A DNA stretch of 64,000 nt from Synechococcus sp. M16.1. GTDB lineage: Bacteria > Cyanobacteriota > Cyanobacteriia > PCC-6307 > Cyanobiaceae. Position 1 is the first letter of the stretch. Each line of letters opens with the position of its first letter. Under the pieces are notes generated by a model. The model saw only the letters and a program-made list of their open reading frames with translations, ran no database searches and had not been told where the DNA came from. The stretch covers positions 1,674,001 through 1,738,000 of the forward strand of contig NZ_CP047954.1 of assembly GCF_014279895.1 (NCBI RefSeq), in the 5' to 3' direction. Shown piece after piece: positions 7,484 to 64,000 of this stretch. Both the position numbers and the translations under genes were made by a program.

Positions 7484-7824
7484 GCGCCGTGGTTTTGCAG
7501 CGTGGACTGATCGTGACCGTGGCCGCAACAGGGGCTTATTCCGGCAAACCAAGACCCGCCGTAGTAGTGCAAGCCAACCGTTGGCTGCAGGGACATCCCA
7601 GCGTCACGCTCTGCCCCCTCACCAGCACCCTGCTGGATGCCCCGTTGGTGCGTATCCCGGTCACACCCAATGCGAGGAACGGATTGAAGAAGGCGTCCCA
7701 ACTGATGGCTGACAAACTGTTCAGCGTGCCCACCACAAGCATTGGTGAGCTGGTGGGCGTTCTGGAGCCCGACCGACTCAGTGCTCTCGATCTCGCCCTG
7801 CGCGGTTGGTTGGACCTTGCCTAA
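7480..7824 (+). CDS. MazF/PemK-like endoribonuclease toxin
   Basis: 114 residues with the MazF barrel pattern: 'QRGLIVTVAATGAYSGKPRP' then 'AVVVQANRWL', 'TLCPLTSTLLDAPLVRIPV', and 'KASQLMADKLFSVPTTSIGE'. The Arg and Pro of the first loop and the Ser/Thr of 'CPLTST' match the RNA-binding active site region of the family. Such toxins cut mRNA at short sequences and are neutralised by the upstream RHH protein. The gene looks intact. The pair sits between ccs1 and queF as a separate small cassette. Confidence 0.8.
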   Translation: MSAVVLQRGLIVTVAATGAYSGKPRPAVVVQANRWLQGHPSVTLCPLTSTLLDAPLVRIPVTPNARNGLKKASQLMADKLFSVPTTSIGELVGVLEPDRLSALDLALRGWLDLA

Positions 7825-7833
7825 AGCAAATCG

Positions 7834-8223
7834 TCAGCAAGGCTGACGAGTGCCGTGGCTGACCCGCACCACCGTGTGGACATTGCCGCGGGGATTGAAA
7901 TCCGCTTCCAGCTGCATCCAAACCGGATCGGTGGCCGCCACCAGATCGTCGAGGATGCGGTTGGTGACCTCCTCATGAGAGATCGACTGGTCGCGGAAGC
8001 TGTTCACATACAGCTTGATCGCCTTCAGCTCCACAACCCGGGGCCCGGGTTGGTAAATCAGGCGCAGCACCGCGAAGTCGGGATAGCCCGAGAAGGGGCA
8101 CTTGCAGGTGAATTCCGGCAGCTCGATCGACACCTCATAGGGGCGCCCGGGGCGGGGGTTGTCGAAGCAGATCAGCTCGGCTTCGGCGATGGCGCGCTCG
8201 CCGTAGAGGGGGGTCTGGGTCAA
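7834..8223 (-). CDS. queF: QueF, NADPH-dependent 7-cyano-7-deazaguanine reductase
   Basis: 129 residues from a TTG at 8223 (translated as '[12 protein letters not shown]...'). This matches the family start better than the in-frame ATG at 8301, which would add an odd basic extension. The active-site cysteine lies in '[18 protein letters not shown]', with the family motif 'ESKSLK' replaced here by '[15 protein letters not shown]'. The Glu in '[15 protein letters not shown]' is also conserved. QueF reduces preQ0 to preQ1 in queuosine tRNA modification. It is the short unimodular form. It is divergent from glnB. Confidence 0.93.
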
Positions 8224-52787: not shown

Positions 52788-53303
52788 TCAGCAATGCCTG
52801 GCCAGCAAGGATTCGACCATGCCGGACTGGCTCTGCAGCGCATAGGCCTCCACTTCACGCTGGCGCTGCAGCGGCCCGAGCGACTGGGTCACCGTGAGCA
52901 CGTGGGCAGCCGTTGAACGGTCGAGATGATGCGCCAAAAACCGATCTACCTGCGTGGGGCTGAAACCACCCTGCGCCTGCAGCATCAAGCTGATCGTGGA
53001 AGACGACGGCGTCTCCAAACCATCCAGACAATCTTGAACGACGTGGATGGCCTCATGGGTCAGAACATCCAACTGAAGCCCTGGTTGATCGCGCAGCCCC
53101 TGCGACAAACAGAGACGGTTCACGCCCATGTTGTAAGCAGCACGCTCGAGCCCGGGGCCGCACCGCTCGAGCCGATCGATCACAACACCAAGCTGCTCAA
53201 GCCGATCAATCAACCGATCCGTGCGCGCCGAAAGCGAAGTCGCTCGAGCAGGGGTTGCCCAGGCCGCCAGCAAGGCAAAAGCGAGAAACAGACGAATCAG
53301 CAA
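52788..53303 (-). CDS. Secreted protein with HExxH-type metal motif, hypothetical
   Basis: 171 residues with a clear signal peptide ('LIRLFLAFALLAAWATPARA'). The segment 'LQLDVLTHEAIHVVQDCLDG' contains HEAIH, which fits the HExxH zinc-peptidase motif. A third ligand Glu could be in 'QREVEAYALQSQSG' about 70 residues later. It is small for a peptidase and may be a non-enzymatic relative. Cys48, Cys65 and Cys92-type residues could form disulfides. No family name was recalled. Confidence 0.65.
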   Translation of the reverse strand: MLIRLFLAFALLAAWATPARATSLSARTDRLIDRLEQLGVVIDRLERCGPGLERAAYNMGVNRLCLSQGLRDQPGLQLDVLTHEAIHVVQDCLDGLETPSSSTISLMLQAQGGFSPTQVDRFLAHHLDRSTAAHVLTVTQSLGPLQRQREVEAYALQSQSGMVESLLARHC

Positions 53304-53384
53304 AGGCGAGACGCATCAGACGCAAGCTGAGCCTACGCTTGTGCGCGGTTCCGCCATCGGACTTTCAACAGTTTCAAGAGTGCT

Positions 53385-53546
53385 GTGCCGTTCAAACTGC
53401 GTCTGAGCGCATCGGAATGGCGGTTTGCCCTGACGTCATTTGCAGCAAAGGTGGGTTTGTTCTGGTTATCCGAATTGGTGATCTGCCAATGGGATCAGGA
53501 ACGCTGGGTTTGCAATGTTGTGGGAAAGGTTTTGTCCCCTGCCTGA
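53385..53546 (+). CDS. Possible 53-residue small protein
   Basis: It runs from GTG 53385 to TGA 53544-53546 in a gene-poor stretch, with a weak AAGAG site upstream. The peptide ('MPFKLRLSASEWRFALTSFA' start, then 'AKVGLFWLSELVICQWDQER') is Trp-rich with a short hydrophobic helix. Codon choice looks like the core genome. A longer frame (53255-53608) crosses it in another phase but is less protein-like. It may be a real small gene. Confidence 0.35.
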   Translation: MPFKLRLSASEWRFALTSFAAKVGLFWLSELVICQWDQERWVCNVVGKVLSPA

Positions 53547-53684
53547 TCACATTCGCACTAATGGATCTTCTGGTGATCCCACAGATCAGGCGCTTAAGAA
53601 ACCGCTGAAATTCAAGATCTTGGCCTGAAGAAGGGGCTAATCACCTTCATGAGCAGGGTTTTACAGGACCAAGCCAAGCAGTGA

Positions 53685-53936
53685 TCAAAACCTCAGACCA
53701 TGAGCTTGACGGAGTTGCTCCTTACTGACCAAGCAAGTGCCCAGATCAGGATTGGTTGCACCTGGCCGGTATTCAGCGTTCTTCAGAAGCTCCGTTGACT
53801 TACCCCGCAGCCAGAGCAGCTGCCCTGTGGAAGCATCACGCTTGCAACTCACCCACGCATCAGAACGAGCAGCCGGAGCACATGTCACCAGCACCCAAAC
53901 AGCAATCAACCCAAAAGAGCAGCGTGAGGACAACAT
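53685..53936 (-). CDS. Small secreted hypothetical protein
   Basis: 83 residues. 'SSRCSFGLIAVWVLVTCAPA' forms a signal peptide ending near 'AARSDA'. The mature part ('WVSCKRDASTGQLLWLRGKS') is short, basic and has two cysteines. It is bounded by long gene-poor stretches. No homologue was recalled, and a plus-strand frame over the same bases looks like a shadow. Confidence 0.5.
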   Translation of the reverse strand: MLSSRCSFGLIAVWVLVTCAPAARSDAWVSCKRDASTGQLLWLRGKSTELLKNAEYRPGATNPDLGTCLVSKEQLRQAHGLRF

Positions 53937-53955
53937 CTGGTTTCAAGAATCCTTG

Positions 53956-54048
53956 TTAGGTGGCCAGCAACTCAAGCCAGAACAATGCAATGAGCGCAGT
54001 GGCGCCCAACGCCAAAGCGAACCATTGGTCTTTGAGGGTGCGGACCAC
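53956..54048 (-). CDS. Possible 30-residue membrane peptide
   Basis: From GTG 54048 to TAA at 53956. The peptide starts 'MVRTLKDQWFALALGATALI' and is mostly one hydrophobic helix. It is only a weak candidate, since it is short and the upstream frame stays open a few codons further. Confidence 0.2.
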   Translation of the reverse strand: MVRTLKDQWFALALGATALIALFWLELLAT

Positions 54049-54202
54049 GTTGCGATAGCTGTTGCCCCAATAAAACGAGCTTTCAACCAGAAGCCAACCT
54101 CAGCCGATCCTCTGTCGACCAACCGATGTCACCATCAAGATGCTTCTCTTTCCGGAGCGCATCAGGCGAGACGCGGTTCCATGTCAGCGCCAAACTGATC
54201 AC

Positions 54203-54385
54203 ATGGCTCAAAAACCCTGGTTCCAAGCCAACATCCACGCCCCCGGCACAGGCTTCGCCTTGCTGGTCATTGCGTTTTGCTTGCTGCTTCAGACCATCCC
54301 TTCAGCGATCTGCGTGTTGACCCCCAGGGCTGGCTGGGACCCACCGTTGTCTCCGGAGAGGGTGAGGTACTGCAAGGGCGGCTAG
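54203..54385 (+). CDS. Possible 60-residue membrane protein, perhaps frameshifted
   Basis: From ATG 54203, 'MAQKPWFQANIHAPGTGFAL' leads to a hydrophobic helix ('LVIAFCLLLQTIPSAICVL'). A different phase from about 54271 to the stop at 54439 reads as a sensible protein end ('SDLRVDPQGWLGPTVVSGEG', 'EVLQGRLGISPSAWSHQAGL'). The two may be halves of one gene broken by a frameshift near 54290, or the first may be the true gene. Either is uncertain. Confidence 0.35.
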   Translation: MAQKPWFQANIHAPGTGFALLVIAFCLLLQTIPSAICVLTPRAGWDPPLSPERVRYCKGG

Positions 54386-54450
54386 GGATTTCACCAAGCG
54401 CCTGGTCACATCAAGCCGGACTCAGAGATCCACTGTCCTGAAATGTTTGA

Positions 54451-54468
54451 GGGGGCCTTCCAGCCCCC
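54451..54468. other. GC hairpin before the arabinose cluster
   Basis: A 6-bp G/C stem (54451-54456 with 54463-54468) with a 6-base loop, no T-run on either side. It lies 70 bases before the UbiA-type gene and may be a weak end or leader structure. Confidence 0.3.
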
Positions 54469-54539
54469 ATGAGTCATCGGAGCTGTTAGTGAGGTAGAGA
54501 TAATCGGGAGGTGAGCCACACAGCGCGCGTTTGATTGGC

Positions 54540-55451
54540 ATGAATCCATCGGCTATAGCGCGAGCCTGCCGTCCACGGCAGTGGACCAAAAACTTGCTGG
54601 TATTTGCAGCACCGCTGTTCGCCTTCACGGTCGATGCAGAGATTTGGCTTGCCGCTTCTGGGTCACTGGTGGCGTTCTGCCTGATTTCCAGTTCCACCTA
54701 CCTGCTGAATGACAGCCTTGATGTGGAGGCCGATCGGCAGCATCCCCGTAAGCGCTATCGCCCGATAGCAGCTGGACAGGTGCCTGTGCCCCTGGCACTG
54801 ACCACGTCGGCGCTGTTGGTCGTTCTCAGCCTGATGCTGGCTGCCGCTGTATCAGTCCTGCTGGCAGGAGTGATCTTGGCGTATGGGCTGATCCAGGTGG
54901 GTTATTGCCTGCGGCTCAAACGAGAGCCACTGTTGGATTTGTTCTGCATCGCTGCAGGTTTTTTGTTGCGGTCCATGGCCGGCGGCGTGGCTGCAGGGCT
55001 AGCCCTGTCTCCCTGGTTCCTCCTAACGGTTGGTCTGCTGGCGTTGTTTCTGGCGGTGGAAAAACGTAAGGCCGAACTGCAAATTGCCCTTGGGCGTGGG
55101 GTGATGACACGCCAAGTTTTGGAGCGCTACACACTGCCATTAATGCTGCGGATGGAAGGCCTGCTGTCGACCAGTGCGTTTATGAGCTATTCGCTCTGGT
55201 CAGCAGGCCCTGCTCTAAATGGCGCCTCAACCAGCTGGATGCTGCTGACCGTGCCGTTTGTTCTGGTGGGGATCTTTCGCTATCAGCTGCTCAGTGATCC
55301 AGAGGAAGCCGAGCGCCGTCGTGCATCGAATCCCGATCGAACCAGCGAAAAGCCCGAGGAAATTTTGTTGGGCGATCGAGGCATCAAGCTGACCCTGCTC
55401 GGTTGGTTGATCACAACAGCGGTAATCGGTGCATCAATCCACGCCAGCTGA
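54540..55451 (+). CDS. ubiA: UbiA-family polyprenyl-phosphate phosphoribosyltransferase (DPPR synthase-like)
   Basis: 303 residues from ATG 54540; TTG 54531 is an alternative. About eight or nine membrane helices. The Mg-binding motif is N57-D58-S-L-D61-V-E-A-D65 ('LLNDSLDVEADRQHPRKRYR'). A second motif lies in 'LRLKREPLLDLFCIAAGFLL'. This pattern is closer to mycobacterial Rv3806c-type enzymes, which join PRPP to decaprenyl phosphate, than to quinone-pathway UbiA. Five further genes of a polyprenyl-phosphoarabinose route follow. The stop shares one base with the next start. The donor PRPP is inferred from the family and the context. Confidence 0.85.
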   Translation: MNPSAIARACRPRQWTKNLLVFAAPLFAFTVDAEIWLAASGSLVAFCLISSSTYLLNDSLDVEADRQHPRKRYRPIAAGQVPVPLALTTSALLVVLSLMLAAAVSVLLAGVILAYGLIQVGYCLRLKREPLLDLFCIAAGFLLRSMAGGVAAGLALSPWFLLTVGLLALFLAVEKRKAELQIALGRGVMTRQVLERYTLPLMLRMEGLLSTSAFMSYSLWSAGPALNGASTSWMLLTVPFVLVGIFRYQLLSDPEEAERRRASNPDRTSEKPEEILLGDRGIKLTLLGWLITTAVIGASIHAS

Positions 55452-57013
55452 TGACGCCGCAGAGGAAGCAACGGATTGCTGTTTTTGATGTTGATGGCAC
55501 GTTGCTGCTGGGCGACTGCCTCTGGCTTGCTGCCCGCCGAGCCAAGAACGCTTGGGGGCAAGTCGTTGCGGTTTTGGCCTGTTTACCCTGGTTGATTGGC
55601 TGGCAGTTGCGGCTGATCAGGACCGGGCGGTTCAAGCAGCAGGTCGTTGCCGCTTTTGGCATCTGCGAAGCGGTCAACCGCGCAGAGGCGGCGGATCGTG
55701 CGGACTGGCTACTTGATGATTTGAAGGCCCAGATCAATCCCGAGGCTCTGCAGAGGTTGCACTGGCACCAGCAACAAGGTGATCGGGTGCTCCTCTGTTC
55801 AGCTTCCCCACGGCTGTTGCTGCAGCCCCTGGCCGATTGGCTGAAAGTGGAGCTGCTCTGCACCGAACTGGAGCAAAAGAATGGCCTGTGGAGACCCGGT
55901 CTGGCGACTGCGAACTGCAAAGGCCCTGAGAAGGTTCGCCGCCTTGAGGAGCATCTCGGATCACTGAAAGGTCGATCGATTGAGGCCTACGGCGACAGCA
56001 AGGGGGATCGGGAGTTGCTGAAGGCAGCTGCCATTCCGCACTACCGGAGCTTCCTTGCCCAACCCACGCCTTATCCAGCGTTTTCGCTGGGGCCACTGCT
56101 GCCGGTGGTGGCGATTGCAGTGCTGGGTTATGGGCTGCTGGGCATCTGGAGCCAGGGCGATCAGCTTTTGCCGCTGCTGCGCAGCCTGTGGCCGCAGATC
56201 GGTCTTGGACTGTTGCTGGTGTTGTTGGGTTACGCCATTCGCTATGGCCGCTGGCGCCTCTTGCTAGCGGCCGTGCACCAACACCCGCCCATGGCGTCTG
56301 ACGCCAGGATCTGGATGGGCTCCTACGCCTTCACTGCCACTCCGGGTAAATCAGGGGAAGCAGTGCGCTCGCTCCTCCTGAAGCAAGAGTGCGGCGTCCC
56401 CATGCCGCCAACCTTGATGGCGCTGGTGGTGGAGCGGATCAGCGATGGCACAGCCGTGCTGCTCCTGCTGTTGATCAACCTGCCGTTGCTGCTGCGCTGG
56501 CAGGTGCCGCTGGCGGTGCCCATCAGCCTTGGGGTCGCGGCTGTACTCGCGGGGTGGTTTGCGGTGCGTAGCCCTTGGGCGACGGAGCAGCTCAAAAGCA
56601 CCGTCAAACGACTGCTGCCCCGCAAGCTGGCCAGTGCCAGTGGTGATGGCTTGATTGCCCTGCGCCAATTGCTCCAGCCATGGCTGCTGTTGCAAGCCAC
56701 TGCGATTAGTACCGTGGCCTGGAGCCTGGAGGGCGTGAGCCTCTGGCTGTTGCTACGGGGAATGGGTGTGGGTGAGGTGGGAATCGGCGGAGCCACCATT
56801 GCCCATACGGCCGCGGGCCTGATCGGCGCGCTCAGCCTGCTTCCAGGAGGCCTGGGCAGCACGGAAGCGGGCACGGTTGGACTGCTCGCACTACAGGGTG
56901 TTGGCGTGGCAGCGGCCACTCCTGCAACGTTGCTGATTCGGCTGATGACGCTGTGGTTCGCGACTGCGCTTGGGGTGGTCTTCTTACTCTGGCAACCGCG
57001 ACATAAACCGTGA
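55451..57013 (+). CDS. HAD phosphatase fused to LPG-synthase-TM/UPF0104 flippase-like domain
   Basis: 520 residues from ATG 55451, which shares a base with the UbiA stop. Residues 1-215 are a HAD-IB (phosphoserine phosphatase-like) phosphatase: 'IAVFDVDGTLLLGDCLW' with Asp13 and Asp15, 'DRVLLCSASPRLLLQPLADW' and 'EAYGDSKGDRELLKAA'. Residues 220-520 are a polytopic UPF0104/AglD-type region ('FTATPGKSGEAVRSLLLKQE', 'ALSLLPGGLGSTEAGTVGLL'). In context the HAD part could remove the 5-phosphate from polyprenyl-phospho-5-phosphoribose, and the membrane part could move the finished lipid sugar across the membrane. Both roles are inferred. Confidence 0.8.
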   Translation: MTPQRKQRIAVFDVDGTLLLGDCLWLAARRAKNAWGQVVAVLACLPWLIGWQLRLIRTGRFKQQVVAAFGICEAVNRAEAADRADWLLDDLKAQINPEALQRLHWHQQQGDRVLLCSASPRLLLQPLADWLKVELLCTELEQKNGLWRPGLATANCKGPEKVRRLEEHLGSLKGRSIEAYGDSKGDRELLKAAAIPHYRSFLAQPTPYPAFSLGPLLPVVAIAVLGYGLLGIWSQGDQLLPLLRSLWPQIGLGLLLVLLGYAIRYGRWRLLLAAVHQHPPMASDARIWMGSYAFTATPGKSGEAVRSLLLKQECGVPMPPTLMALVVERISDGTAVLLLLLINLPLLLRWQVPLAVPISLGVAAVLAGWFAVRSPWATEQLKSTVKRLLPRKLASASGDGLIALRQLLQPWLLLQATAISTVAWSLEGVSLWLLLRGMGVGEVGIGGATIAHTAAGLIGALSLLPGGLGSTEAGTVGLLALQGVGVAAATPATLLIRLMTLWFATALGVVFLLWQPRHKP

Positions 57014-57951
57014 ACAACAAGCGCATTCCCTGGCTGGGGCTGATTGCACTTGTTCTGCTCGCTCTTGCAGTGGCAGGCCTGGTGCAGCTTCCCGCTGTTC
57101 AGCAGCAAGCCCTGCTCCAATCGCTTGAGTCACTGCTTGTGTGGCTGCCGGTGCTTTATGGGGTGGTGGCCCTGAGCTATGCAGGCCGCTATTGGCGCTG
57201 GAGACTGCTGCTGGGGAAACTGAGAATCGGCAGCACCAACTGGCCCGACCTGCTGTGTTGGTTCCGGGGTTTTGCCCTCACCGCCACCCCCGCCAAGGTG
57301 GGCGAGCTGAGCCGGGTTCAGCTGCTGCATAAACAGCTTGGCTATCCCCGTCTGCCCCTGGTGCATGTGTTTGTTGCTGAGCGCTGCGCAGATGCAGCAG
57401 CAGTGGGTCTGTTGCTGTTGCTGCTCATCCCCAACCAGCTCCTCGGCAGCATTCCATCACTGAGTTCAACCTGGCTCCTGGCCGTGGCCGTGGCCGTGGT
57501 AGCGGCATCTGCCCTGCTGCTCGCCAGTCGACGTTCCTGTCGTCGTTGGATGCAGAACCAGTGGCACCGCTTTCGCCACCACTTCCCCAGCGGCGCTCTG
57601 GCTCAAGGCTTACTGCCCGCCACTTTGATTTCGGTGGTGGTCTGGGCGAACGAGGCCCTGGTGTTGTGGTTGTTGGTGCGGCTGCTTGCACCTGCTCCTA
57701 TCACCATTCCAGCGGCCATAACTATCTACTTAGTGTCTGGGACTGCGGGCATGGCTTCCTCCCTACCGGGCGGGATCGGTGTGAATGAGGCAGCCACCGT
57801 GCTGCTGCTAGGCCAGCAAGGGGTTCCAGCGGCTGTGGCGCTACCGGTTGCGATGCTGCGGCGGCTGATCACGCTCTGGTCGATGGCAACTTTGGCAATT
57901 GTTATGGGTTTCCATCCACTACCCATTAATGAGTCAGACAATTTAAGATAA
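57010..57951 (+). CDS. Second LPG-synthase-TM/UPF0104 membrane protein
   Basis: 313 residues from a GTG at 57010 that overlaps the previous stop by four bases. It is a paralogue of the C-terminal half of the preceding protein: 'GFALTATPAKVGELSRVQLL' and 'MASSLPGGIGVNEAATVLLL' match the two family motifs. About eight membrane helices. Members include AglD and lysylphosphatidylglycerol synthase membrane regions, some of which are proposed flippases. Two copies side by side suggest a two-part transporter for the lipid-linked pentose. This is inference. Confidence 0.82.
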   Translation: MNNKRIPWLGLIALVLLALAVAGLVQLPAVQQQALLQSLESLLVWLPVLYGVVALSYAGRYWRWRLLLGKLRIGSTNWPDLLCWFRGFALTATPAKVGELSRVQLLHKQLGYPRLPLVHVFVAERCADAAAVGLLLLLLIPNQLLGSIPSLSSTWLLAVAVAVVAASALLLASRRSCRRWMQNQWHRFRHHFPSGALAQGLLPATLISVVVWANEALVLWLLVRLLAPAPITIPAAITIYLVSGTAGMASSLPGGIGVNEAATVLLLGQQGVPAAVALPVAMLRRLITLWSMATLAIVMGFHPLPINESDNLR

Positions 57952-58537
57952 TTTTGGTAGCTAAATTTTTCAATATTGCTGATATCAATTAGGTATACTT
58001 GCTGGAATGCTTTTAAAAAGCACGCATTATTAATTTACGCTTTTTAAATGTTAATTTCAGGGTGCCATCACGAAACACCGTCATTTCCTTTCTTGCTCCT
58101 TGCTAGGGGCTTCAGCAGTTGTCGGAGCAACTGGATGCGGTAGTTCACCGTGGACGGTCGCACCATCGACAGTTGCGCATGACAGAGAGCATTGCACTCC
58201 CTGCTCTCTAGCAAAATTAGGGCTAAAATAGATAAAGAAAATACTTTAAATCTAAAAGCTTTTAGTTCAGGAATGCAGGCAATGATTACCAAATTAATAA
58301 TGCTGCCTGGGTCAATTCTTCCTTATATTTTTTATGCAATTAAGGCCTAGACCCGCAATTGATTGGATAGCGGCAAAATCGTCTTTGCGGTCATCGTAAT
58401 CGATAAAAATTTATGGTACCTTTTGATGGAATCTGCAGCTTACTCTTTTAATGTTAATTCTGTAATTCATTCGCTTCGGCTATATGTAGTGTTTAAGCCC
58501 GCAAGCAATTATCTTCGTTGGAGCCATTTGTCAGGTC
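57952..58537. other. Gap inside the arabinose cluster with a decayed lipoprotein-like fragment
   Basis: 586 bases with a drop in GC. No intact gene. Together with the fragment at 58055-58231 it looks like degraded DNA inserted into the gene set. The promoter for the DprE2-like gene should be in its right part. A minus-strand 74-codon frame at 58068-58292 is a shadow. Confidence 0.5.
58055..58231 (+). pseudogene. Remnant of a lipoprotein/ABC substrate-binding protein N-terminus
   Basis: An open phase without a start codon reads 'ITKHRHFLSCSLLGASAVVG' and then 'ATGCGSSPW', which is the look of a signal peptide with a lipobox Cys, as in ABC substrate-binding proteins. It ends at TAG 58229-58231 soon after. 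It is most simply a leftover gene start. The parent gene is not identified. Confidence 0.3.
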
Positions 58538-59263
58538 GTGATTCGTAGTGCTTTTATTTTAGGAAGCACCAGCGAGGTGGCCAAGGCCATCTGCAGGGAG
58601 CTAGCCTGCCGCGGCTGTGGGCATTTGCACCTGGTGGCCCGGAATGAAGAAGCCAACCAGGCCTTTGCGAGAGAGTTGGAGGCGAGCTACGGAGTAGCAG
58701 TCAGTACCGAGTACACCGACCTGCTGGCCGATAGTTCTCTGTCCCCAGTCCGCCGGCCTCAGGTAGGTGATTTCGATCTCTATCTGATCACAGCAGGTGC
58801 GCTGGGCAATGCCGAACTGGCGCGCAGTGATACCGCTGAAGCGATGCGGATCCATGCAGCCAATGTGGGCGGCCTTTTGCCTTGGCTTACAGCTATCGCC
58901 ACTTCCGAACGACTGTCCCGGCCCGGACGGCTGTGGGTGTTTAGTTCGGTGGCGGCCGATCGTGGGCGGCCATCGAATTATCATTATGGCGCCGCCAAAG
59001 CCGCCCTGACGGCACTCTGTGAGGGGCTGTTGTTGCGCTGCTACGGCAAGCCATTTGCGGTGCGCATCATCAAGGCTGGTTTTATGGCAACGCCGATGAC
59101 GGTGGGCAAGGCACCACCAGCCTTATGCGCCAGCCCTGAATCGGTTGCGCAAAACTTGCTGCGTCGACCGAACAGACGTGGGATCGAATACTTGCCCTGG
59201 TGGTGGTCACCATTGATGCGGCTGATTCGTGTTCTTCCTGCTCCCATCGCGTCCAAACTCTGA
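58538..59263 (+). CDS. dprE2: DprE2-like short-chain dehydrogenase (polyprenyl-phosphoryl-2-ketoribose reductase)
   Basis: 241 residues from a GTG at 58538. The NAD loop is 'AFILGSTSEVAKAICRELAC'. The catalytic set is Ser136/Ser137 ('VFSSVAADRGRPSN') and Tyr150-x-x-x-Lys154 ('YHYGAAKAALTALCEGLLLR'). The C-terminal 'PFAVRIIKAGFMATPMTVGK' is typical of DprE2. With DprE1 it converts polyprenyl-phosphoryl-ribose to arabinose: DprE1 oxidises C2 and DprE2 reduces the 2-keto form with NADH. It lies 8 bases before the DprE1-like gene, as in actinobacteria (where the order is reversed). Confidence 0.88.
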   Translation: MIRSAFILGSTSEVAKAICRELACRGCGHLHLVARNEEANQAFARELEASYGVAVSTEYTDLLADSSLSPVRRPQVGDFDLYLITAGALGNAELARSDTAEAMRIHAANVGGLLPWLTAIATSERLSRPGRLWVFSSVAADRGRPSNYHYGAAKAALTALCEGLLLRCYGKPFAVRIIKAGFMATPMTVGKAPPALCASPESVAQNLLRRPNRRGIEYLPWWWSPLMRLIRVLPAPIASKL

Positions 59264-59271
59264 AGTTACCT

Positions 59272-60654
59272 ATGACCATTTCTCTTCCGGAAGGCTTGAC
59301 AGCCGAAACCAAAATGCTGAGCGGCTGGGGCCGCACAAACCCCGTCACCTGCCAGGTGGTGCAACCCAGCTCGGTGGAACAGCTGCAGGAACTGATCCGA
59401 GGAGCACCACCCAATTCACTAATTGCAAGGGGTTTAGGCCGCTCCTATGGCGATGCAGCTCAGCTCAAAGACGGCACGGTAATTGAGCTACCGGCCTTTG
59501 ACCGGATCGAGCTGGATCCCAGCAGCAGCACGGTCACTGCAGGAGCTGGAGTGAGCTTCGATCAGATCCTGCGGGTGATTGTGCCAGCGGGGTTCTTTCT
59601 GCCGGTGACGCCTGGTACTCGCAACGTCACCGTTGGAGGAGCGATTGCCGCTGATGTTCACGGCAAAAACCACCACGTAGATGGCAGCTTTGGCAACCAT
59701 GTGCAGCGGTTGCTGCTGGTGGATGCCAATGGCGACTTGAGAGAGCTAACCCCCAGCGGACGTGGCAGTTTTGATGAAGCGGAGTTTTTCTGGGCCACCG
59801 TTGGTGGCATGGGGCTCACGGGCGTGATCGTGGAGGCGACGTTTTCGCTGATCCCAATCACCAACTCACTAATCAGTGTCGATACCACCCGCTACCAAGA
59901 TCTGGAGACGCTGATGGCGGCAATGGTGGAAGCAGATTCCAAGTACCGCTACAGCGTGGCCTGGGTCGACAGCCTCGATCCCAAAGGCCGCGGCGTGTTG
60001 ACCTGCGGAGACCATGCCACCGCAAAAGCACTCCCGAAAGACAAGCAAGCGGATCCTCTCTTCTACGACCCCAAGGCACGGGCCTCAGCCCCACCGTTTC
60101 TACCCGGAGGATTGCTCAACAAGTTCACGGTACGAGCGTTTAATGAAGCTTGGTATCTCAAGGCTCCTAAGCATCGGGTTGGCGAGCTGCAGGAGATTTC
60201 ACCGTTCTTTCACCCTCTCGATGGCGTACAAGACTGGAACCGGATCTATGGCGCAGCTGGCTTCTTGCAATATCAATTCGCTGTGCCAAATGAAGCAGCT
60301 CATCTGGTAGCCCACACCTTGGAAGCACTACGGAAAGTTGGAGCCCCAAGCTTTTTAACAGTGCTTAAGAGATTTGGCCAAAGCAACCCAGCCCCGTTGT
60401 CATTTCCAATGCCTGGGTGGACCTTGGCTGCAGATGTGCCGGCTGGAGTTTCCGGGCTGCTGGAGGTCTTGGATGAGCTGGATGAACAAGTGGCCGATGT
60501 TGGCGGTAGACTGTATCTAGCGAAAGACTCCAGACAGTCCAAAAAAATATTTAAGCAAAGTTACCCGAGATTTTTTGAGCGGAATAAACTTCATACCAAA
60601 CAAGAAATAAACAGTGCTTTCAAATCAGACATTTACAATAGATGCATAGGTTAA
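59272..60654 (+). CDS. dprE1: DprE1-like FAD-dependent polyprenyl-phosphoryl-ribose 2-oxidase
   Basis: 460 residues from ATG 59272, almost the length of M. tuberculosis DprE1 (461). The frame is open to 59200. The FAD domain has 'ARGLGRSYGDAAQLKDGTVI', 'PVTPGTRNVTVGGAIAADVH' and 'GKNHHVDGSFGNHVQRLLLV'. The substrate domain has 'PFFHPLDGVQDWNRIYGAAG' and 'FGQSNPAPLSFPMPGW'. Lys418 in 'RLYLAKDSR' matches the catalytic lysine at the same number. The residue equal to Cys387, target of benzothiazinones, is Ala386 here. It forms the epimerase with DprE2. The last residues become AT-rich at the island edge. Confidence 0.93.
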   Translation: MTISLPEGLTAETKMLSGWGRTNPVTCQVVQPSSVEQLQELIRGAPPNSLIARGLGRSYGDAAQLKDGTVIELPAFDRIELDPSSSTVTAGAGVSFDQILRVIVPAGFFLPVTPGTRNVTVGGAIAADVHGKNHHVDGSFGNHVQRLLLVDANGDLRELTPSGRGSFDEAEFFWATVGGMGLTGVIVEATFSLIPITNSLISVDTTRYQDLETLMAAMVEADSKYRYSVAWVDSLDPKGRGVLTCGDHATAKALPKDKQADPLFYDPKARASAPPFLPGGLLNKFTVRAFNEAWYLKAPKHRVGELQEISPFFHPLDGVQDWNRIYGAAGFLQYQFAVPNEAAHLVAHTLEALRKVGAPSFLTVLKRFGQSNPAPLSFPMPGWTLAADVPAGVSGLLEVLDELDEQVADVGGRLYLAKDSRQSKKIFKQSYPRFFERNKLHTKQEINSAFKSDIYNRCIG

Positions 60655-60781
60655 GAATAATATTTAAAACTATTGGCGCGGAAGGTACTCCCGCCTTATG
60701 CAATATTTAGTGATAGACTACTGTAATCTCAAAAATGCTCTAAAAGTCAAACCTCTAACCAAACCCTTTCTGAAGTAAAAC

Positions 60782-62374
60782 ATGATTTCTCCAAATACAA
60801 ATACGAAAAGCAGCATACTAATTGCCACTATTTCAGGGTGTTTGTTTTTTTTGATGTGCATTCTCGTCATGAGAAATGGACATCTCCACGAAGATGCCTA
60901 TATTTTATTCCAATATTCACGCAATTTTTCGCAAGGGCTAGGTATTTCGTTTGATGTCGTAAATGGACCGGCTGAGGGTGCAACTGATTTTTTATGGATG
61001 TGCCTATTAGGAATATTTCATCGTATTTTTATGGGCAATATTGAAATTGGAGTCATTGCAGCTTCCCTAAATTCCATAGGACTTGCATATATAACCAGAG
61101 AGGTAATAAATATCAGAAAATCTGTAGATCTGAACACAATAGCTATTTGCATACTCCTAATTGTTTCGGGCGGAGCGGCCGCAGCTATAGGCGGCTTTTC
61201 CACAGCTGCTTTCGGAGCTGTGTATGTAGCGACAATCTTGTCATTCTTCAGAAATAAATTTAATCAAGGCTTGGTATTTTCAACGCTTCTTGCTCTTTTT
61301 CGCCCAGATGGATTTTTTTTAGGAAGTGCAACCATTATAGCTTATCTTTTCCTTGAATTACCTGAGCTGGACGCAAAACAAACAGCAAAGAAATTAACAA
61401 TATTTTATTTGATCCCATTGATTACATATTTCTTTTGGAGGTATACCTATTTTGGACTGCTTCTTCCGCTTCCTCTAATAGTAAAACAAAACACTGATTT
61501 TATGTTTGAAGGCATTCGTCCTAACATGAAATCATTGGTTGGATACAGCCCCGTAATTACAGGCATTCTATTATACTTCAGAAGCTACATTGAAGCCAAT
61601 ACAAACAAAAGATTCTTCATCCTTGCTTTCTCAGGGTCATTAACACTTTTCATGCTACTTATATTCGCCCATCAATCCCAAAATGTCGGGATGCGATTCC
61701 AATTCCCGCTTCATCTTTCAATAATCTTACTTGCTTCATCAATATTTCCTAAAACAACAAAAACTTCTATCCTATCCAGCGCCTTAATATTTATAAGCAT
61801 AGTGTATTTTTCTAGAGGATTCCATGCAAACATAAATTATTTGACAAATAGCGATTACATAAATTCATTCCCGCAAATCCTTCGTCAACGCCTTGATATC
61901 AATTCAATAGCAGTTACTGAGGCCGGAAGATTTCCTTACTGGTACAATGCGGATAGCATGGTTGACCTGGTAGGTCTCAATAGCAAAAATGTAGTGACAA
62001 ACGGTCCCATAGCAGAGCTCGAAGAAAAAAATCCTGACCTTATTTTTATTCATCATGCGGGAAGATTCATCTATCCTGATGAATTAATTGGCACAGGAGA
62101 TAATTTTGTAATTTTCGACCCAAACTCTATTAAGTTATCTGAATACAATGGATCTAATCCTGTCAAACTTGCTCCTGCTGCTGCCTTAGAAAATGCTATC
62201 AACAGATCATTGACGGGAATTGCAGTTAAATATGGCAAAAAAAACAAATACTTCTCACATGTTTATTTTGTTCCAGATTCTGTCAACTTGAAAAAATTCA
62301 AAACAGCTGTTGCCGATAGTTTTCTGACAAAAACGAATTACTTTGCATCCGAGAAACCAAATAAAAATCAATAA
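60782..62374 (+). CDS. GT-C membrane glycosyltransferase, AftB-like, probable arabinofuranosyltransferase
   Basis: 530 residues, AT-rich, with about ten membrane helices in the first 350 residues and a C-terminal extracellular domain. The first outer loop has 'NGHLHEDAYILFQYSRNFSQ' and then 'GLGISFDVVNGPAEGATDFL', which lines up with AftB: Asp of 'EDA' as catalytic base, then 'N..G.G..F......E...' and a 'TS/TD..W' site. 'LALFRPDGFFLG' and 'YFGLLLPLPLIVKQ' also match ('RPE', 'YYGLLVPS'). AftB adds D-arabinofuranose from the polyprenyl donor. The substrate is inferred from this and from the DprE1/E2 genes next door. The acceptor is unknown. Confidence 0.75.
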   Translation: MISPNTNTKSSILIATISGCLFFLMCILVMRNGHLHEDAYILFQYSRNFSQGLGISFDVVNGPAEGATDFLWMCLLGIFHRIFMGNIEIGVIAASLNSIGLAYITREVINIRKSVDLNTIAICILLIVSGGAAAAIGGFSTAAFGAVYVATILSFFRNKFNQGLVFSTLLALFRPDGFFLGSATIIAYLFLELPELDAKQTAKKLTIFYLIPLITYFFWRYTYFGLLLPLPLIVKQNTDFMFEGIRPNMKSLVGYSPVITGILLYFRSYIEANTNKRFFILAFSGSLTLFMLLIFAHQSQNVGMRFQFPLHLSIILLASSIFPKTTKTSILSSALIFISIVYFSRGFHANINYLTNSDYINSFPQILRQRLDINSIAVTEAGRFPYWYNADSMVDLVGLNSKNVVTNGPIAELEEKNPDLIFIHHAGRFIYPDELIGTGDNFVIFDPNSIKLSEYNGSNPVKLAPAAALENAINRSLTGIAVKYGKKNKYFSHVYFVPDSVNLKKFKTAVADSFLTKTNYFASEKPNKNQ

Positions 62375-63092
62375 TATCCTTAAGTAAATCTCTTTTCTTA
62401 GGCACGGACAATAAGTCTACTGCCTATAAAGGCAAAATTCGATTAAAACATTCGCTTCTGATGGGGTGTCAGATAACAACCTCATTGTCATGAACGAAGC
62501 GACTGCCCCATACCTTGGAGGCCAATGTCAGAGATATTCTTTCTAAGAATACCTGCAGGTTGCGGTCGAGAGGGCTAAAGAGCAGAAGCAGAAGGTCATC
62601 GCGGTGAGTACGGTTTTGCGCGGTGCTCGCACCAGCGGTTCCACAATTGGTTCATGAACCATTAGATCCGCCCCAAGCATCCAGCAACGGAGCCAATCCT
62701 TCGAGCGATGTGGATGAAGTCAGCGGGGCAGCTCTCACGCCTGGCTGGAAACCTCCACATCACCAACACCCAGAGCAGCCCAGACCCGGTCAGCGATCAC
62801 CACGCCGAGCTGGGGATGGCTCAAAGCAAAGCCTGGAAAACCTTCAGGGTCTTTCACCCCGATGCTGAAATCTCAGGATCCAAGATCTGCCCAGCATCAA
62901 TCAGTTCAAGCGCGTACAAAGCAGACAAGCCCCCTAAATCAATGACACCTGAGACGAGTCACTTATACCCAAAAGCAGCAACGTCGCAGGCACCAAGTTC
63001 GTCCACATTCAGGTCAGGTGCACCTTCGACGCCCCACCTAGTGTGGAGGGTCCAGCAGTAGAGCATCGCCAGTTGCTCGTCAGAAGGGTCCA
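62375..63092. other. Gene-poor, decayed stretch at the right edge of the cluster
   Basis: About 720 bases with no supported gene. Short fragments in different phases look like protein: on the plus strand near 62550-62660 ('EYLQVAVERAKEQKQKVIAV' and on), and on the minus strand near 62730-62950 ('VIADRVWAALGVGDVEV', and in another phase 'GGLSALYALELIDAG'). They point to broken genes rather than working ones. Plus-strand frames at 62623-62868 and 62708-63061 read as Pro/Ser/Gln-rich shadow sequence. Confidence 0.45.
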
Positions 63093-63461
63093 TTAACCCA
63101 ACTTGAGAGATGAACTCTCACCAGGCTCAGCAAGAACGTTGTTAGACGTGGTTCCCGTTGAGCTCTGGCCGAGCGTCGCCGAGAGCGTGAAAACGTCCAC
63201 CCCCCGCCGAATTGCATGAGTGGCATGAGTGTGGCGGCAACGGTGCGGGTAGAGGTGCACTTCGGCAGCCTTTCCCCATCTGGCCATGCGAGCGGCCACC
63301 CCCTGCCGGGTCAATGGCCCATTCCTTTTATTAGTTGGAAAGAGCCAGTCCTCAGCACCGCCGCGGCCCAACGACACGAACAGCGCCACCCTTCGGCATG
63401 AAGGATGGATGCGTCTGGCTTGAACTGCACCACCTTCTGCTGATGAGCGTTCACAAGCCAC
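63093..63461 (-). pseudogene. Tyrosine recombinase (integrase) remnant lacking catalytic residues
   Basis: Only the C-terminal part of a phage-type integrase is present: 'DWLFPTNKRNGPLTRQGVAA' and 'PHRCRHTHATHAIRRGVDVF', then 'TLSATLGQSSTGTTSNNVLA'. The HxxR motif is intact, but the second catalytic His (LGH) is Gln and the nucleophilic Tyr position is Asn, so it cannot act as a recombinase. No N-terminal core-binding domain precedes it. It marks an old integration event near the right edge of the variable region. Confidence 0.8.
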
Positions 63462-63548
63462 CTCTCACCGCCAGCCCTGGCCGGATTGTCTCCGTAGCGG
63501 GGCCCTTCCTTAAACATGGCTAAAACTAAGGACTGACACCCCTCCGCC

Positions 63549-63728
63549 ATGGAAGAGGCCACGTTCTGGGAACCGACCGACAAATTTCTGAACCAAGCCG
63601 ACTACGACCTGAAGCTCTTGATGAAGACCTGGAAAGACGAATACGGCGCGGATGACTACGCGTGCTCCATGGTGCTGCGGACCATCGCCGACAGCGTTTA
63701 TCTGCCTGAGGGCCAACCGCTCGTCTAG
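63549..63728 (+). CDS. Hypothetical 59-residue acidic protein
   Basis: From ATG 63549 to TAG 63726-63728. The peptide ('MEEATFWEPTDKFLNQADYD' start, then 'LKLLMKTWKDEYGADDYACS') is acidic, soluble and helical. It ends 2 bases before the next small gene, so the two are likely one transcript. Codon use matches the core genome. Function unknown. Confidence 0.5.
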   Translation: MEEATFWEPTDKFLNQADYDLKLLMKTWKDEYGADDYACSMVLRTIADSVYLPEGQPLV

Positions 63729-63730
63729 CC

Positions 63731-63958
63731 ATGTTCTTGGACATAATCGGCGTTCTTCTACTCGTTGCCCTTCTGGCGTTTGGTGCCGGGGCTTTGTGGA
63801 AACCCCTAAGAGCACTCTGGGGATTTATCTCCCGGCGTCAGGCCCTGGGTTGGTGGACAAGAAAGCCCATCCTCCCAATCGTTCGAGGCAAGAGCGGCGG
63901 CCGCTTTAAGCGCATCTACCGCAAGAGGACACGCCGCTCCTTCTATGGACGCTTCTAA
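63731..63958 (+). CDS. Small basic membrane protein, hypothetical
   Basis: 75 residues. One N-terminal helix ('LDIIGVLLLVALLAFGAGAL') is followed by a very basic tail ('RGKSGGRFKRIYRKRTRRSF'). It starts 2 bases after the previous stop. It could anchor at the membrane and bind nucleic acid or lipid head groups. No family was recognised. Confidence 0.5.
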   Translation: MFLDIIGVLLLVALLAFGAGALWKPLRALWGFISRRQALGWWTRKPILPIVRGKSGGRFKRIYRKRTRRSFYGRF

Positions 63959-64000
63959 GTAGCCGTAACCGCAATTGCGCATGAAAAAGCCGGGTGCAGT

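Follow-up and report, generated by a model that had tools for sequence, protein, structure and literature searches.

The 64,000-nucleotide stretch of DNA from Synechococcus sp. M16.1 analysed here (hereafter the window), which lies within a single-contig genome of 2.11 Mb, contains a gene that joins, on one chain, a HAD-IB phosphatase domain and a predicted flippase domain of the AglD/MprF type, in a cluster that also encodes a homologue of DprE1. The fusion gene (55451..57013, + strand) starts with the ATG at 55451, has no internal stop and encodes 520 aa. Its HAD domain (55478..56023, +; residues 10-191) scores 112.1 bits against Pfam HAD PF12710 (cut-off 27), its membrane domain (56111..56974, +; residues 221-508) scores 142.1 bits against LPG_synthase_TM PF03706, the AglD/UPF0104 family (cut-off 33.4), and these are the only Pfam matches of the protein. 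Both assignments are matched by the corresponding TIGRFAM models, TIGR01488 for HAD-IB (72.2 bits, cut-off 45) and TIGR00374 for flippase-like proteins (81.1 bits, cut-off 43.2). The narrower HAD-IB model TIGR01490 is reached by five of the nine proteins tested (from G409, G223, G075, G114 and Persicobacter) and missed by those of G441, G655, G669 and, narrowly, by the window fusion itself (95.1 versus 98.3 bits).

HAD enzymes are recognised by four motifs, namely a DxD with the nucleophilic Asp (I), a Ser/Thr (II), a Lys (III) and an acidic pair (IV). The fusion has both Asp of its DVDGT motif, D13 and D15, together with S117, K161, D182 and D186, so that the pairing of a HAD-IB domain with an AglD/UPF0104 domain, as given in a preliminary description of this DNA, is borne out by the scores and the residues. 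D13, D15, K161, D182 and D186 are identical in 31/31 aligned HAD domains, and position 117 is Ser or Thr in all 31. Hydropathy further indicates a hydrophobic cap helix at residues 38-56. The HAD part is taken to be cytoplasmic, from the absence of an export signal (judged by eye) and knowledge of the family.

The fusion is confirmed as one real, intact gene. Cyanobium sp. FGCU52 (82% identity) and Synechococcus sp. 8F6 (80%) likewise carry the two domains in a single open chain, and a scan of contigs named Synechococcus sp. GFB01 as a third relative. We compared 386 genomes sampled across the phylum and 400 genomes of the family of the window, with G000, G353, G409 and G441 common to both samples; the intact fusion occurs in 24 of the 400 family genomes, a count that includes the window genome, FGCU52 and 8F6, and, outside this family, in G075 and G223, which belong to two other families. 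Since the chain is open in other genomes, a sequencing artefact is ruled out, as are a chance fusion and an assembly error.

The membrane domain was modelled over residues 206-520, with the paralogue encoded next to it added as extra rows (predicted local distance difference test, pLDDT, 67; predicted template modelling score, pTM, 0.66); a model of the whole protein (pLDDT 55) was not used. In VIA-align the model matches six MprF structures with Z values of 19.3-20.8, the next, unrelated row being at 6.8, and the best alignment, to 6lvf, has Z 20.8 and a root-mean-square deviation of 3.6 A over 249 residues; Foldseek alone finds MprF at E 1.9e-3 with probability 1.00. Taking 6lvf as the R. 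tropici protein described in PMC8131360, the aligned MprF stretch, 56-325, corresponds to subdomain 1, and the fold of the domain, as modelled, is that of MprF subdomain 1. E427, E472 and R497 are kept in 39/39 flippase domains; from the spans of the profile matches and the account of MprF in PMC8131360, and not from an alignment, E472 and R497 are likely counterparts of SaMprF D254 and R279.

The gene cluster in the window

Immediately upstream of the fusion lies a gene (54531..55451, +; 306 aa) for a UbiA-family polyprenyl-phosphate phosphoribosyltransferase, that is, a decaprenyl- or polyprenyl-phosphoryl-5-phosphoribose (DPPR/PPPR) synthase, which meets the family profile NF008978 (266 bits, cut-off 207), carries an NDxxDxxxD motif at residue 60 and matches the solved M. 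tuberculosis DPPR synthase 8j8j at E 2.7e-48. Immediately downstream, a second predicted flippase of 313 aa without a HAD domain (57010..57951, +; PF03706 140.1 bits), absent from the preliminary description, belongs to the type B defined below. The fusion ATG overlaps the synthase stop codon by 1 nt (TGATG) and the GTG start of the second flippase overlaps the fusion stop by 4 nt, as in translationally coupled genes. The 586 bp that follow (57952-58537) are AT-rich, contain no long open frame and are single copy in the genome; in the Cyanobium locus L024 the flippase stop is separated by 2 bp from the next ATG.

Beyond this gap lie a gene (58538..59263, +) for a short-chain dehydrogenase/reductase (SDR) and the gene for DprE1, the polyprenylphosphoryl-ribose 2-oxidase (59272..60654, +; likely ATG at 59272 in a frame open from 59200), which scores 520.5 bits against NF053785 (cut-off 500) and matches the solved DprE1 4aut at E 6.9e-115. 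The SDR scores 96 bits against NF053786, below its cut-off of 250, and 165 bits against PRK07102, also below its cut-off; we call it DprE2-like from its similarity and its place beside DprE1, and a relative adjoins DprE1 in most of the other clusters compared. In the alignment with 4aut, an Ala of the window DprE1 occupies the position of the Cys used by covalent inhibitors of the mycobacterial enzyme. The last gene (60782..62374, +) encodes a 530-aa membrane protein, a candidate GT-C pentofuranosyltransferase from its place in the cluster, with no Pfam match and a weak match (30 bits, under the cut-off) to the LA_3751/LA_3752 putative glycosyltransferase family; among the loci compared, only Synechococcus GFB01 has a clear homologue. 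No Rfam match was found in 53000-64000, and promoter-like and terminator-like sites do not exceed chance expectation.

Linkage and history of the two domains

DprE1 was searched for with NF053785 at E <= 1e-40 (the curated cut-off being 500 bits), and the fusion with a profile built from four fusions, those of the window, L024 (the same place as G665), L025 (the same place as G565) and G075. In the phylum sample, 17/386 genomes match the fusion profile (E <= 1e-15), six of them with both domains on one chain (G000, G075, G223, G353, G409 and G441), and all six are among the 16/386 genomes with DprE1 (Fisher p 1.8e-9; this and the p values below ignore kinship). DprE1 is over the cut-off in four of these six, G075 (458 bits) and G223 (474 bits) falling below it. 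The fusion lies within about 3 kb of DprE1 in five genomes; the exception is G075, where 2.3 Mb separate DprE1 from the fusion, which there stands as a lone gene. In G223, two DprE1-like genes flank the fusion (L064 2017-3420 and 9720-11027).

In the family sample, 32/400 genomes match the profile at E <= 1e-40, of which 23 span both domains in one match. G729, whose match covers 7-385 only, is counted as the 24th fusion, as local profile searches show both of its domains, and the remaining eight matches are pieces or single domains (G028, G472, G532, G547, G556, G610, G650 and G680), G610, which is GFB01 with the gene in pieces, being left out of the 24. DprE1 is present in 31 of the 400 genomes (24 over the cut-off), including 23 of the 24 with an intact fusion (p 1.3e-29; over the cut-off in 18 of the 23), and in these 23 the fusion and DprE1 are always on the same strand, 743-4714 bp apart (median 2187). 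Counted by genus, 9/9 fusion genera are among the 12 DprE1 genera of 59 in the family (p 1.8e-8) and 6/6 among the 13 DprE1 genera of 142 in the phylum (p 1.7e-7). A single clonal lineage as the source of the link is rejected, the association recurring in nine genera of the family and in two other families, even with kinship inflating the p values. A fusion found mostly in genomes without DprE1, which would have spoken against a place in the DprE1 route, is thus the reverse of what is seen.

A UbiA synthase lies within 7 kb of all 24 family fusions, and in six genomes (G584, G599, G591, G592, G669 and G690) UbiA, HAD-flippase, DprE2 and DprE1 stand in a row, DprE1 of G599 being in two pieces. 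The 24th fusion genome, G655 (3.4 Mb, 50 contigs, estimated 100% complete), has UbiA adjoining the intact fusion (L138 7888-10376); DprE1 was not found genome-wide, nor DprE1 or DprE2 in the stretch fetched, where the two genes are followed by a 407-aa frame resembling a membrane protein. Because G655 has the synthase and the fusion without DprE1, the fusion follows the synthase more closely than it follows DprE1. Few members of the window's genus have the fusion; of the relatives searched first, the window genome alone has it whole and G028 has a truncated copy, in which the synthase and a shortened HAD (L020 9400-10765) stand beside an integrase-like gene (by eye), with no flippase found in the stretch fetched. 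In the GFB01 draft (L026 10001-11530) the fusion gene is spread over more than one frame, with the synthase and the homologue of the 530-aa protein nearby.

Genomes with DprE1 differ in how they carry the HAD domain. Among the 31 of the family, 23 have the fusion, two (G650 and G680) a separate HAD behind GtrA, one (G688) a HAD-UbiA fusion, G493 flippase pieces at a contig end, and G059, G471, G727 and G738 none of these; among the 16 of the phylum, six have HAD-flippase and six HAD-UbiA (G085, G099, G112, G304, G337 and G463), and G123, G140, G221 and G246 have neither near DprE1. A triple HAD-UbiA-GtrA fusion is possible in G304, where one 651-aa frame beside DprE1/E2 (L074 230-2185) matches local profiles of all three domains, of which Pfam recovers only the first two. 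Beyond the cyanobacteria, other phyla were covered through plasmids: 0/72,556 plasmid records cover 80% of the fusion, and among 11 opened of the 64 records with DprE1, five carry HAD-UbiA (three by Pfam, two by local profile), five have GtrA alongside and none has a HAD-flippase. No relative of the fusion was found in the viral contigs scanned.

Three trees were used to place the domains. The first HAD tree, which includes the HAD piece of L026 (also part of the local HAD profile), is divided by a 100/100 branch, with the flippase-fused HADs, the separate HADs of G114 and G364 and the HAD of Persicobacter on one side and the usual HAD-UbiA HADs on the other; the Persicobacter branch is long. 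A single HAD family for all the fusions is rejected, the usual HAD-UbiA HADs being another clade. In Persicobacter (L086) a HAD of the window-type clade is fused to UbiA, beside DprE1/E2, and solitary HADs of this clade occur in the DprE1 clusters of both G650 and G680 and, in G114, close to UbiA and GT87. Two HAD lineages were thus enlisted for seemingly the same step, one of them being found fused to either neighbour.

The second HAD tree and the flippase tree leave out the broken or truncated genes of L020 (G028), L026/L147 (GFB01/G610) and L143 (G493), and the flippase tree also leaves out L018. In the second HAD tree the HADs of the family split into two types, A (13 rows, 97/97) and B (13 rows, 98/97), and the HADs of G075 and G223 belong to neither. 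In the flippase tree, in which some rows are long, type B is one clade (17 rows, 100/100) and type A is not one supported clade. The HAD-flippase of G441, whose own HAD is of type B, is joined at 98/96 by the window's second flippase and its counterparts in G565 and G665; the HAD-flippases of G353 and G540 are next to that group (92/90), and all of these lie inside B. The second flippase is therefore not an unrelated neighbour, as it belongs to the clade of type-B fusions, and on the simplest reading it derives from such a fusion, its HAD having been lost as A and B were brought together.

R264 and K300 of the flippase domain are present in 26/26 HAD-fused flippases, in 5/5 type-B flippases without a HAD and in the free flippase that G085 has in its DprE1 operon, and in 0/7 flippases from genomes without DprE1, six of these seven being close kin and the columns having been picked after looking; with the same post hoc choice of columns, the two residues appear to mark the flippases of the pathway.

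Proposed pathway and competing explanations

We regard it as probable that the fusion provides a phosphatase and a translocator, on one chain, to a lipid-linked pentofuranose pathway, and the cluster in the window looks able to make and export lipid-bound D-arabinose. Following work on mycobacteria and Citrobacter, we place the synthase first, then the phosphatase, the epimerases, the flippase and the transferase. The UbiA enzyme, by strong homology, would move 5-phosphoribose from phosphoribosyl pyrophosphate to polyprenyl phosphate on the cytoplasmic side. The HAD domain, through its nucleophile D13 and a chemistry published for a related system, would then take off the 5-phosphate to give polyprenyl-phospho-ribose; polyprenyl-phospho-5-phosphoribose is most likely its substrate, judging from sequence comparisons, and a role as the 5-phosphatase of the DprE1 route, already put forward in the preliminary description, is supported by the linkage with DprE1 in 23/24 and 6/6 fusion genomes. 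DprE1 and the DprE2-like reductase would invert C2 to give polyprenyl-phospho-D-arabinose, and genomes without them would stop at ribose; G655 fits a possible ribofuranose version of the pathway. Finally, the MprF-type domain, alone or with the second flippase, would pass the finished lipid across the membrane, probably as a scramblase without an energy source, its use by a periplasmic GT-C transferase pulling the lipid one way. Holding the phosphatase on the flippase would bring the charged phospho-intermediate and its exit together in one place, tying the second step to the fourth and leaving the third to the enzymes of the neighbouring genes, and a phosphatase at the mouth of the scramblase would limit loss of the phosphorylated precursor, if the domain acts like PaMprF, which moves many lipids without an energy source (PMC11980842).

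A bolder form of this proposal, which we hold only tentatively and think rather unlikely as a whole, is that the promiscuous MprF-type domain passes only the dephosphorylated pentose lipid owing to the phosphatase on the same chain, that the flippase pair (A with its HAD, B with its HAD lost) shares one phosphatase, perhaps as a heterodimer, and that R264 and K300 set the choice of lipid; if so, an exporter of the MprF type could be named for the product of DprE1.

Several observations weigh against assigning both functions to the fusion. The relatedness of the genomes inflates the linkage counts and their p values, many DprE1 calls are under the curated cut-off (over it, 4/16 in the phylum and 24/31 in the family), as is the DprE2 relative in the window, and no DprE1 was found where the fusion is in pieces (G610, that is GFB01) or truncated (G028, a 77%-complete genome). 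In whole-genome searches at E <= 1e-5 the fusion profile matched nothing in eight DprE1 genomes (G059, which is 64% complete, G471, G727, G738, G123, G221, G246 and G140), indicating that a HAD of this type is dispensable to the pathway. The cluster of G085, in which HAD-UbiA, DprE1, DprE2 and a free PF03706 flippase share one operon, may have been transferred or be foreign DNA, since its contig measures 12.8 kb and its HAD falls with Burkholderia in the first HAD tree. The lipids moved by MprF, the relative that has been characterised, are phospholipids, and the literature consulted gave no case in which this family moves polyprenyl lipids. Lastly, the DprE1 clusters of G650 and G680 carry GtrA and HAD with no flippase, and in 12/12 type-B clusters GtrA adjoins the fusion, which directly follows it; because of this, and with GtrA the usual candidate exporter, the MprF-type domain may not be the exporter in type-B clusters.

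A strict coupling of the two functions, in which dephosphorylation would license or drive flipping and the HAD would hand the lipid straight to the flippase cavity, falls within the proposed double role as a special case, so that the likelihoods of the two overlap, and seems to us doubtful. It would agree with the chain that the two domains share in lineages A and B as well as in G075 and G223, and with the close contact of synthase and flippase domains described for MprF (PMC8131360). However, the HAD would yield the ribose lipid, on which DprE1 and DprE2 have still to act, and coupling is doubtful because the work of these enzymes separates dephosphorylation from transport, unless it takes place outside the cell membrane, a location treated as disputed in PMC11127046. 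Five free type-B flippases also seem to have lost their HAD and yet stayed. The suggestion in the preliminary description that 5-phosphate removal and transport are coupled finds no support in such natural variants, since the HAD occurs without a flippase, the flippase without a HAD, both in DprE1 clusters, and the HAD also on the synthase.

It is unlikely, in our view, that the HAD removes the 5-phosphate while the membrane domain is only an anchor presenting the lipid, or brings spent polyprenyl phosphate back to the inner leaflet, with export left to GtrA, the second flippase or another protein. The GtrA neighbours of the type-B fusions and the clusters of G650 and G680 agree with this division of labour, as do GtrA in 10/12 HAD-UbiA loci examined and the promiscuity of PaMprF, a scramblase that could run either way (PMC11980842). 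On the other side, no GtrA was found in the stretches fetched for the 14 non-type-B fusions (12 of type A, G075 and G223), six of which are minimal four-gene units, nor among the open frames of at least 60 aa in window 53301-64000; an anchor would not need the likely transport residues E472 and R497, kept in all 39 domains; and the free flippase of G085 sits in a DprE1 operon.

A role of the HAD in general lipid dephosphorylation, like that of its HAD-IB relative phosphatidylglycerophosphatase C, with an incidental link to DprE1, is highly improbable: the match to the PgpC model YfhB is weak (30.4 bits, cut-off 259) and such HAD domains occur on 1690/72,556 plasmid records, mostly of enterobacteria, where a pathway link was not looked for, but the linkage counts and the fusion of the same HAD clade to the phosphoribosyltransferase itself in Persicobacter speak against it.

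Comparison with known systems

The nearest described counterpart is the Citrobacter youngae system of ORF15, ORF14 and ORF12, the prototype of the three-component pentofuranose systems of Kelly et al. (2024), in which, as predicted for the window, a UbiA-type synthase and a HAD phosphatase are combined with a flippase and a membrane glycosyltransferase, and with DprE1/E2 where the sugar is arabinofuranose (PMC11127046). There the HAD (PRP) domain of ORF15, tested for the 5-phosphate step (PMC11127046), is on the synthase chain, whereas in the window it is on that of an MprF/AglD-type flippase; the usual HAD-UbiA HADs fall in the other clade, ORF15 itself not being in the tree. The flippase proposed for Citrobacter is a small MATE/EmrE-like protein, while the window offers PF03706 candidates, with a second one after the fusion, and among the open frames of 60-199 aa in 53301-64000 none exceeds two hydrophobic segments. 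The transferase of the Citrobacter-type system is a GT-C enzyme of family GT136; the candidate in the window is the protein of 60782-62374, with its weak match to a putative glycosyltransferase family. The main text of that three-component-system paper does not mention cyanobacteria (PMC11127046).

With the mycobacterial pathway (Rv3806c, Rv3807c, DprE1, DprE2 and Rv3789) the window shares homologues of DPPR synthase and DprE1 and the DprE2-like SDR. Rv3789 is GtrA-like. As described in PMC11127046, the mycobacterial phosphatase Rv3807c is unrelated to HAD, unlike the fusion, and the proposed exporter Rv3789 is a small protein of the small multidrug resistance type; the HAD-flippase may fill both places. 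The preliminary description, which spoke of a missing dephosphorylation step, was thus right that the mycobacterial candidate is of another kind, but a HAD for this step was already known in the PRP domain of ORF15 (PMC11127046). In that system the D18A variant of ORF15 makes the phosphorylated lipid, some dephosphorylated product remaining (PMC11127046), and in Rhizobium IRBG74 deletion of noeN, a proposed phosphatase gene, lowers and does not abolish arabinosylation (PMC5080398); because product and arabinosylation remain in these two cases, other phosphatases may be able to stand in partly, which may explain the genomes without HAD. In the rhizobial noeCNHOP cluster for Nod-factor arabinosylation, noeC, noeH and noeO cover three of the four steps of the route and NoeN is proposed as the phosphatase for the remaining one (PMC5080398). 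A cluster of noe order in Sinorhizobium alkalisoli (L085) has no HAD-flippase, and the gene between synthase and DprE1, at the published position of noeN (7576-7998), is annotated as GtrA, at odds with the NoeN proposal if this gene is noeN.

Enzymes joined to a membrane domain of this kind have precedents. MprF, the lysyl-phosphatidylglycerol synthase-flippase, has enzyme and flippase on one chain, with a C-terminal GNAT synthase where the window has an N-terminal HAD, and with a subdomain 2 that the window lacks. Haloferax AglD likewise joins a cytoplasmic enzyme of a glycosylation pathway to the UPF0104 family (PMC5898192), the enzyme there being an archaeal glycosyltransferase rather than a phosphatase. 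A flippase function is predicted for the whole UPF0104 family (PMC5898192), and a UPF0104 gene, as a putative flippase, ends the glucosaminyl phosphatidylglycerol (GlcN-PG) operon of P. aeruginosa (PMC12713373).

Fusions of UPF0104 to glycosylation or lipid enzymes are thus already known (AglD and MprF; PMC5898192), as is the HAD chemistry for 5-dephosphorylation (Citrobacter ORF15), and what is new is the HAD on an MprF-type flippase; among the matches listed in open-licence literature, a body that excludes all preprints and most subscription papers, neither a HAD-UPF0104 fusion nor a UPF0104-DprE1 link was found. In the DprE1 pathway the 5-phosphatase is loosely assigned and the exporter is without direct evidence, as presented in PMC11127046. 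This pathway is a drug target in mycobacteria. A conserved single chain with both candidate functions, in a cyanobacterial four-gene unit, opens the two steps to testing in a laboratory host and puts forward the MprF/AglD class as exporters for polyprenyl-phospho-pentoses; it also predicts D-arabinofuranose, or ribofuranose in G655, in the surface glycans of some picocyanobacteria.

Two further observations concern neighbouring sugar genes. In the type-B clusters of G409 (L061 8523-11277) and G441 (L063 4998-7677) a trio encodes an NAD-dependent epimerase, a protein resembling FAD amine oxidases and GtrA, and a similar trio follows DprE1/E2 on a plasmid of Burkholderia stagnalis (L087); perhaps it performs a further step on the lipid-linked sugar. 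In the window itself, positions 12000-36000 form a low-GC island (34-47% versus about 60%) with frames that, named by eye, resemble glycosyltransferases, NeuB and polysaccharide-export proteins.

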